From assembly GCA_017412115.1 (NCBI GenBank), contig JAFPYR010000017.1, positions 71,159 through 135,158 on the forward strand: a stretch of DNA of 64,000 bases. The letters run 5' to 3'. Source of the stretch: Bacteroidales bacterium. Lineage in GTDB: Bacteria; Bacteroidota; Bacteroidia; Bacteroidales; UBA3824. Position 1 is the stretch's first letter. Every line of letters starts with the position of its first letter. The position numbers and the translations under genes are program-made. Below, piece by piece: positions 41,969 through 42,973 of the stretch. The notes beneath the pieces are model-generated. The model saw only the letters and a list, made by a program, of their open reading frames with translations. It made no database searches and was not told where the DNA came from.

Positions 41969-41999
41969 TTTGCACATAAATAAATCCTTACTACTTTTA
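41969..41999 (+). promoter_or_regulatory. Promoter-like element ahead of the hairpin region
   Basis: TTTG (41969-41972), 19-bp spacer, TACTTTTA (41992-41999). The last -7 base is A instead of G. Initiation would fall about 42005, at the first hairpin. Confidence 0.5.
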
Positions 42000-42002
42000 C
42001 AA

Positions 42003-42190
42003 CGGAGAGCGGCTACATATTCCCACTCTCCGACATATTTTATTTTGGGAATTGGCATTGTGCTGTAATCTTATCGAAAATGTGGAAGTTTTCAAAGCAA
42101 ATGATTATAAGCACAACTGCCACGCCTATCATACAGGCGTGGGTCGTTGTGTTATATTATTTGCTTGGGTACTTCCACAACCTTCGATAA
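42003..42190 (+). ncRNA. Candidate structured RNA or structured leader: two hairpins
   Basis: Hairpin 1: CGGAGAG (42003-42009) with CTCTCCG (42026-42032). Hairpin 2 is a 120-nt nested structure. TTATCGAA (42071-42078) pairs with 42183-42190, GTGGAAGT (42082-42089) with 42171-42178, AAGCAAAT (42095-42102) with 42159-42166, CACAAC (42112-42117) with 42146-42151, and CCACGCCT (42120-42127) with 42135-42142. The loop is seven bases. All five helices are perfect and nested in order, separated by internal loops. It is not a simple terminator because no T-run follows. It may be a small RNA, a leader controlling the BspA-like gene, or a mobile palindromic element. Confidence 0.4.
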
Positions 42191-42283
42191 AAATATACAA
42201 AAACGACTACGCTTTTTTTATGCATAGCTGCAATCCAATTTTTTTATATTTTGATTTTTTATTCAATAACTAAAAAAACAATT

Positions 42284-42973
42284 ATGAAAATTTTAAAACT
42301 ATCAGATTTTAACACCTGTGCATCATGTCCTGACAAGGAAAGAAAAAATGCGTATGCTATATTAAAAGAAGGGGTTTTAATTTTTAGATACGACAACTAT
42401 AAGCCCGAAGACGCGTTTAAAATGAATAACGATTCTAAGTTTCCGATGTGGATCTCAAAAAATTCTGAAATTAAAACAATAATTTTTGAAAATTCATTCA
42501 AAGATTATACTCCTAAAACTTGTTACGCATGGTTTTATGATTGTATAAATCTCACTGAAATACAGAACATTAACAATCTTAACACATCTCAAGTCATAGA
42601 TATGGGTTCTATGTTTTGCGGATGCAATTCTCTTATAAGACTTGATGTCAATAATTTTGACACAAAAAATGTTTCGGACATGGGGTATATGTTTCAAGGT
42701 TGCAATTCTCTTATACAACTTGATGTCAGTAGATTCGATACAAGAAATGTAAAATATATGTACAATATGTTTTCAAATTGTTACTCTTTGAAAACAATTT
42801 TGGTCGGGGACAATTGGAATACCAAAGCCGTAACTTCGTCAGAATCAATGTTTACAAATTCTAACAATCTTATAGGCGGAAAAGGAACAACCTACAATCA
42901 GGGAAAAAACGACAAAGAATACGCCCGTATTGACGGCGGTGAAAATTATCCGGGGTATTTCACTAAAAAATAA
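42284..42973 (+). CDS. BspA-like DUF285 repeat protein without signal peptide
   Basis: 229 residues. DUF285-type repeats are clear: NTSQVIDMGSMFCGCNSLIRLDV, NVSDMGYMFQGCNSLIQLDV and NVKYMYNMFSNCYSLKT, which form the usual 'MF.GC.SL..LD' pattern. A tail ending GYFTKK follows, as is common at the C-terminus of this family. Members are usually exported surface proteins, but this one has no signal peptide (starts MKILKLSDFNTCASCP). An upstream start at 42251 gives no signal either. It is probably a fragment or a cytoplasmic protein. The DNA shows near-identical 70-bp repeats in the middle. Confidence 0.85.
   Translation: MKILKLSDFNTCASCPDKERKNAYAILKEGVLIFRYDNYKPEDAFKMNNDSKFPMWISKNSEIKTIIFENSFKDYTPKTCYAWFYDCINLTEIQNINNLNTSQVIDMGSMFCGCNSLIRLDVNNFDTKNVSDMGYMFQGCNSLIQLDVSRFDTRNVKYMYNMFSNCYSLKTILVGDNWNTKAVTSSESMFTNSNNLIGGKGTTYNQGKNDKEYARIDGGENYPGYFTKK

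Follow-up and report, generated by a model that had tools for sequence, protein, structure and literature searches.

The window, the whole 64,000-nucleotide stretch of a Bacteroidales genome that we analyzed, carries on its forward strand a conserved, structured RNA element. From its sequence we read this RNA, with a probability of slightly under 0.6, as a cis-acting leader that acts as a riboswitch-like transcription attenuator. The element is one member of a family of diverged RNAs with a promoter, covarying helices (two of which, P0 and P4, exclude each other), a U-tract, and linkage to the next gene.

Promoter, helices, and gene order in the window

A Bacteroidota-type promoter (consensus TAnnTTTG) lies at positions 41969 to 41999, with TTTG at 41969 to 41972, N19, and TACTTTTA at 41992 to 41999. 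Transcription would be expected to start near 42003, the position at which a variable first hairpin of the transcript can be read from the sequence (CGGAGAG at 42003 to 42009 with CTCTCCG at 42026 to 42032). In an alignment of relatives from the same genus, other sequences are substituted in this hairpin and self-complementarity is kept. Farther downstream, folding and covariation define a long nested hairpin at 42071 to 42190, the proposed antiterminator conformer. Its outermost helix is P1 (42071 to 42078 with 42183 to 42190; strands TTATCGAA and TTCGATAA), followed by the outer helices P2 (42081 to 42089 with 42171 to 42179) and P3 (42096 to 42102 with 42159 to 42165), the inner helix P4 (42111 to 42117 with 42146 to 42152), and P5 at the tip (42120 to 42127 with 42135 to 42142). 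The region from 42060 to 42200 folds at -59.3 kcal/mol, compared to -26.3 ± 3.3 kcal/mol for shuffled sequences (z = -9.9; 0 of 200 shuffles as good), and the longer region from 41969 to 42190 also departs from its shuffles (z = -8.9).

A preliminary description of this DNA had proposed the promoter, a first hairpin at the expected start site, five helices nested within 42071 to 42190, and more structure than chance would give. All four proposals were borne out, and the long hairpin exceeds chance because its helices covary in homologs. The hairpin is real, but the conserved unit is larger (~42049 to 42220), and within it the hairpin competes with a second set of helices. Covariance model R2, described below, matches this RNA core at 42049 to 42220 with 120.3 bits and an E value of 8.7e-27 (E values of our covariance models are rough).

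Three helices beyond those of the preliminary description, P0, P6, and P7, emerged from an alignment of 47 diverse members (A3). P0, a 5′ hairpin at 42054 to 42121, pairs GGCATTGTGC.TGTAATC (42054 to 42070) with GATTATAAGCACAACTGCC (42103 to 42121) and excludes P4. P6 and P7 connect the strand 3′ of P5 to the 3′ end of the RNA, and covariation places them in one hairpin at 42135 to 42214, the proposed terminator stem. P6 pairs TATATT (42153 to 42158) with AATATA (42192 to 42197), and P7 pairs GGTCGTT (42142 to 42148) with AACGACT (42202 to 42208), with a possible extension between AGGCGTGG (42135 to 42142) and CTACGCTT (42207 to 42214). Directly 3′ of the P7 3′ strand lies a U-tract at 42213 to 42219, where the terminated RNA is predicted to end. 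Since the 3′ end is more likely to fall here, the transcript would probably be ~215 nt long instead of the ~190 nt put forward previously.

The next gene, at 42284 to 42973 on the same strand, starts 63 nt past the RNA core and encodes a DUF285/BspA-like protein of 229 amino acids (Pfam PF03382; E = 1.5e-24). The locus is accessory; in relatives, the dihydroorotase is followed by other genes.

Homologous copies and covariation

Nucleotide BLAST of the window's own genome returned a single full copy, while relatives in the same genus carried homologs with ~75% identity, including seven within one genome. The alignment of these relatives contains a conserved block of ~170 nt, upstream of which lie a Bacteroidota promoter and the variable first hairpin. 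A covariance model based on the long hairpin (R1) matched a second, more diverged tier in 16 of the 18 genus genomes and, beyond the genus, in further families of the order, and a sequence profile confirmed the homology and strand of this tier. R1 also matched reverse strands, as a long hairpin of any kind receives a score, and it was dropped in favor of R2, a model derived from A3 that uses the closing stem, P0, P5, P6, and P7 and excludes P1 to P4. R2 found the RNA in all 18 genus genomes, with 15 matches in the window's own genome, whose other members are too diverged for BLAST, and 31 in each of two others (copy numbers in the large searches are lower bounds). Across the order, 101 of 295 sampled genomes and 69 of 183 genera had matches (E ≤ 1e-6) in a scan that scored few candidates per genome, and in the phylum the RNA was found in 46 of 395 sampled genomes. 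When R2 was run on 90 sources, 92 matches had the expected orientation and one weak match (28 bits) was on the opposite strand. Searching with a 16-base pattern of the flavobacterial type yielded loci from Flavobacterium, Chryseobacterium, Elizabethkingia, Parabacteroides, Bacteroides, Mucilaginibacter, Empedobacter, and other genomes; 75 of 80 loci retrieved from these named genomes were R2 matches.

The RNA occurs in tandem at two loci. Two copies ~45 nt apart lie upstream of one gene (L082:1263-1640, minus strand), and at the other locus each copy precedes one of two adjacent Sel1-repeat genes (L076:3059-4972, plus strand). In Chryseobacterium/Kaistella loci L212, L218, L240, and L249, a second conserved hairpin (GCAATGG...CCATTGC) lies ~100 nt past the RNA, so the transcribed unit there may be longer.

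With 15 diverged members in one genome, a single-copy RNA gene is ruled out. The preliminary description had suggested that one copy would indicate an RNA gene and many copies a mobile element, and this distinction fails here, as the many diverged copies behave like a leader family. A palindromic mobile element or repeat, similar to a MITE or REP sequence, would account for the many copies per genome, the long inverted repeat, and the accessory nature of the window locus, yet we regard it as very improbable. The copies are diverged, with one BLAST copy and relatives at ~75% identity where near-identical dispersed copies in free orientation would be typical of such repeats; their helices covary, including P0, P6, and P7 outside the palindrome; and orientation and spacing to the promoter and next gene are fixed. 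Phage records held no match, and of 36 viral contigs found by pattern, R2 confirmed the RNA in only 5 (one weakly), so a phage origin was rejected. A plasmid-borne element was rejected as well; among plasmids, the genus type had no match and the flavobacterial type one partial match. An integron attC site was also set aside, as there were no cassette arrays and no core site recognizable by eye.

Covariation, which the preliminary description had proposed as a check, is strong. For P0, P1 to P3, P5, P6, and P7, 85.3% of cells in A3 were paired, compared to 42 to 49% with slid partners, and doubly changed cells (541 versus 85 to 150) and the covariation score (0.498 versus 0.10 to 0.14) differed in the same direction. 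In partner-swap tests, whose unclustered z-scores are inflated by relatedness, each helix was supported, and the compatible helices and the incompatible P4 all exceeded the swaps. When partners were swapped only within sequence clusters, every tested helix, including P4, kept its signal at an intermediate cutoff (z = 3.7 to 9.5); at the strictest cutoff, z ranged from 1.0 to 6.6 and P0 was no longer distinct. In relatives, unrelated yet complementary strands take the place of the window's P1 strands. A short closing stem around the whole RNA is present in most members and weak in the window type. Many copies clearly have an additional hairpin before the start codon, the loop of which pairs with the P7 3′ strand; in the window type this hairpin is weak or absent, and we do not count it as part of the core.

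Two pairs of conserved helices are mutually exclusive in this alignment. P0 and P4 have the strand GCACAAC in common, with P0 not significant at the strictest clustering, and P5 and the extended terminator stem (P7) have AGGCGUGG in common. Support for P4 is comparatively weak. None of P0, P1 to P3, P5, P6, and P7 overlaps another, and all of them fit into one pseudoknotted fold, with the loops of P0 and P6 paired to each other. The covariation is also compatible with this single fold and does not prove switching.

Gene linkage and a proposed attenuator model

The promoter and U-tract recur across homologs. Upstream of the core, 64 of 91 homologous loci carry an exact TAnnTTTG, compared to 5.8 expected from shuffles, as do 61 of 76 loci of the named, mainly flavobacterial set (7.0 expected). 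None of 78 gaps between the RNA and the start codon contains this box. A T-rich run (mostly 73 to 90% T) directly follows the P7 3′ strand (consensus CCACGC) in both homolog sets. In the window, the 3′ portion from 42135 to 42220 folded alone gives a hairpin of -22.0 kcal/mol followed by U7, so that the sequence has the stem and U-tract of a putative intrinsic terminator. For 89 of 92 loci in the genus, order, and class set, the RNA and the next gene share a strand, and the median distance from the RNA end is 53 nt (downstream gene starts were assigned mechanically). Own promoter, same-strand gene, and no promoter between them are what a 5′ leader would show; the arrangement is less clear in flavobacteria, for which the named set has a same-strand next gene in 59 of 73 loci, often 100 to 300 nt off.

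Downstream genes are diverse. They encode DUF285/BspA-like, LRR, and Sel1 proteins, lipoproteins, dynamin-like and other GTPases, caspase-like peptidases, and DNA methyltransferases of several restriction-modification types; no common pathway was found among them. At loci L163, L169, L172, L178, and L180 of the window's genus, the RNA lies directly before methyltransferase genes (Dcm-like, HsdM-like, HSDR_N plus N6_Mtase, and N6_N4_Mtase). In the window's own genome, an Rfam abiF RNA (L062:3474-3510, minus strand; 58.8 bits) lies ~360 nt upstream of one copy. Open reading frames that resemble Rpn/PD-(D/E)XK-type genes by eye lie just upstream at L018, L019, L021, and L058, although such genes are possibly just abundant in these genomes.

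Taken together, the promoter, the U-tract, and the close same-strand gene make a structured leader of the BspA-like gene the best-fitting of the three readings offered in the preliminary description; a mobile palindrome is unsupported, and the third, a small RNA, holds to the extent that a released RNA of ~215 nt is the expected terminated product, but the leader fits better. Because AGGCGUGG is common to P5 and the terminator and GCACAAC to P0 and P4, the layout is that of an attenuator, for which we infer transcription, termination, and a direction of switching. Transcription would start near 42003, and P0 would fold first, with a choice point once RNA past 42145 emerges. In one outcome, the long hairpin of P1 to P5 would displace P0 and sequester AGGCGUGG in P5, which would block the full terminator stem and let polymerase read through into the BspA-like gene. 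In the other, P0 would stay and P6/P7 would form, so that polymerase would stop at the U-tract and release the RNA. P0 would thus serve as anti-antiterminator, the long hairpin as antiterminator, and P6/P7 as terminator. Folding of growing prefixes of the window RNA gave P0, then P0 with P5 once 42125 to 42145 was reached; P4 had formed by 42160, and by 42180 the fold had become the long hairpin. In the window copy, the long hairpin is the minimum free energy structure (-61.9 kcal/mol, versus -33.2 kcal/mol for nested P0/P5/P6/P7 without the pseudoknot), so the default may be read-through, which kinetics, a ligand, or a protein could alter. The lack of a common downstream pathway argues against a simple feedback metabolite.

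Several observations run against attenuation. The long loop enclosed by P6/P7 is unusual for an intrinsic terminator, the flavobacterial next gene is often 100 to 300 nt away or on the opposite strand, and the downstream genes lack a common pathway. The leader role is less clear in flavobacteria, and a serious rival is that the family consists of free-standing small RNAs of ~200 nt, trans-acting or protein-binding, with their own promoter and terminator, and that downstream genes are reached by read-through or are mere neighbors. The RNA is indeed bracketed by a promoter and U-tract, flavobacterial copies adjoin a divergent helix-turn-helix (HTH) gene with the downstream gene often distant or on the opposite strand, and one Bacteroidales copy (L018) has a convergent gene as its sole downstream gene. 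However, a free-standing RNA would not need the promoterless, same-strand genes ~50 nt off that typify the 92 Bacteroidales loci, and we consider this reading possible but clearly less probable than a leader.

The divergent HTH genes raise another alternative. In the named, mostly flavobacterial set, 43 of 77 loci have a small HTH gene that is oriented divergently to the RNA and starts ~115 to 140 nt upstream of it; among 41 of these genes examined, Pfam HTH_3 was present in 25 and HTH_26 in 24. Palindromes lie in the intergenic region common to the HTH gene and the RNA. In named flavobacterial loci, short palindromes ~20 to 40 nt upstream of the RNA promoter are locus specific, as are the HTH proteins, and look like matching operators. 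Several Bacteroidales copies have a small HTH-like gene directly downstream, three of which were recovered by the HTH profile. It is conceivable that protein and RNA form a two-part system, with the protein repressing or binding the RNA and the two together gating accessory genes. The divergent genes with palindromes between and the downstream HTH-like genes are in keeping with this, but most Bacteroidales copies, including the window's, have no adjoining HTH gene, the HTH proteins are as highly diverse as ordinary local repressors would be, and the profile used for neighbor counts was made from the same proteins that were counted. We therefore think such a system improbable.

Should the RNA prove to be a switch, the genes under its control would include those for surface proteins and DNA methyltransferases along with other accessory genes, and one shared signal would link them. 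More tentatively, these RNAs might be an uncatalogued, phylum-wide, pseudoknotted class that works, often jointly with small HTH proteins, as a general RNA-based gate through which one signal acts on the expression of Bacteroidota accessory genes (surface proteins, restriction-modification, GTPases). With the fold and covariance model, the RNA can be tested directly in culturable members of Flavobacterium, Chryseobacterium, Parabacteroides, and Bacteroides.

Comparison with known RNA families

The RNA is as elaborate as large riboswitches, occurs across Bacteroidota from gut, rumen, and environmental sources at up to ~30 copies per genome, and is absent from Rfam 15. No Rfam 15 family matched the element in the window or in ~65 homologous loci that ranged from the genus to the whole phylum; the best chance score was 28.8 bits for MCS4, against a threshold of 56, and Rfam matches in the window were to tRNA only. 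We did not find a description of this RNA in open-access text.

The FopS small RNAs of Bacteroides form a multicopy family. They are ~65 to 70 nt long, consist of a single-stranded 5′ region followed by a single terminator hairpin, and base pair with targets in trans (PMC11697453). Like FopS, the present RNA belongs to a paralogous family, has many copies in a Bacteroidota genome, and is preceded by ordinary promoters, but at ~215 nt, with a pseudoknotted core and a position preceding genes, it does not have the features of FopS members. Other structured Bacteroidetes RNAs, namely, Flavo-1, Bacteroidales-1, and 6S-flavo, came from comparative genomics (PMC2864571), and their Rfam models match none of the searched loci. 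A metagenome catalogue lists HMP2_4205, HMP2_1065, and HMP2_1032 as palindromic candidates of 80 to 132 bp, mostly from Bacteroidetes, and the domain that it finds most often downstream of its candidates is HTH_XRE (PMC8040213). The main text of that catalogue presents neither a pseudoknotted fold nor a leader family, and one of these palindromic candidates may be a fragment of the present RNA.

The closest likeness is to attenuators and riboswitches, which share with the window RNA a structured 5′ leader with its own promoter, alternative helices, and a terminator stem with a U-tract before the gene. Unlike them, the window RNA has no common downstream pathway and no matching Rfam riboswitch or leader model, and the role of a ligand or factor is putative. 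Structured leader RNAs are a known kind of element, whereas the class itself appears new.
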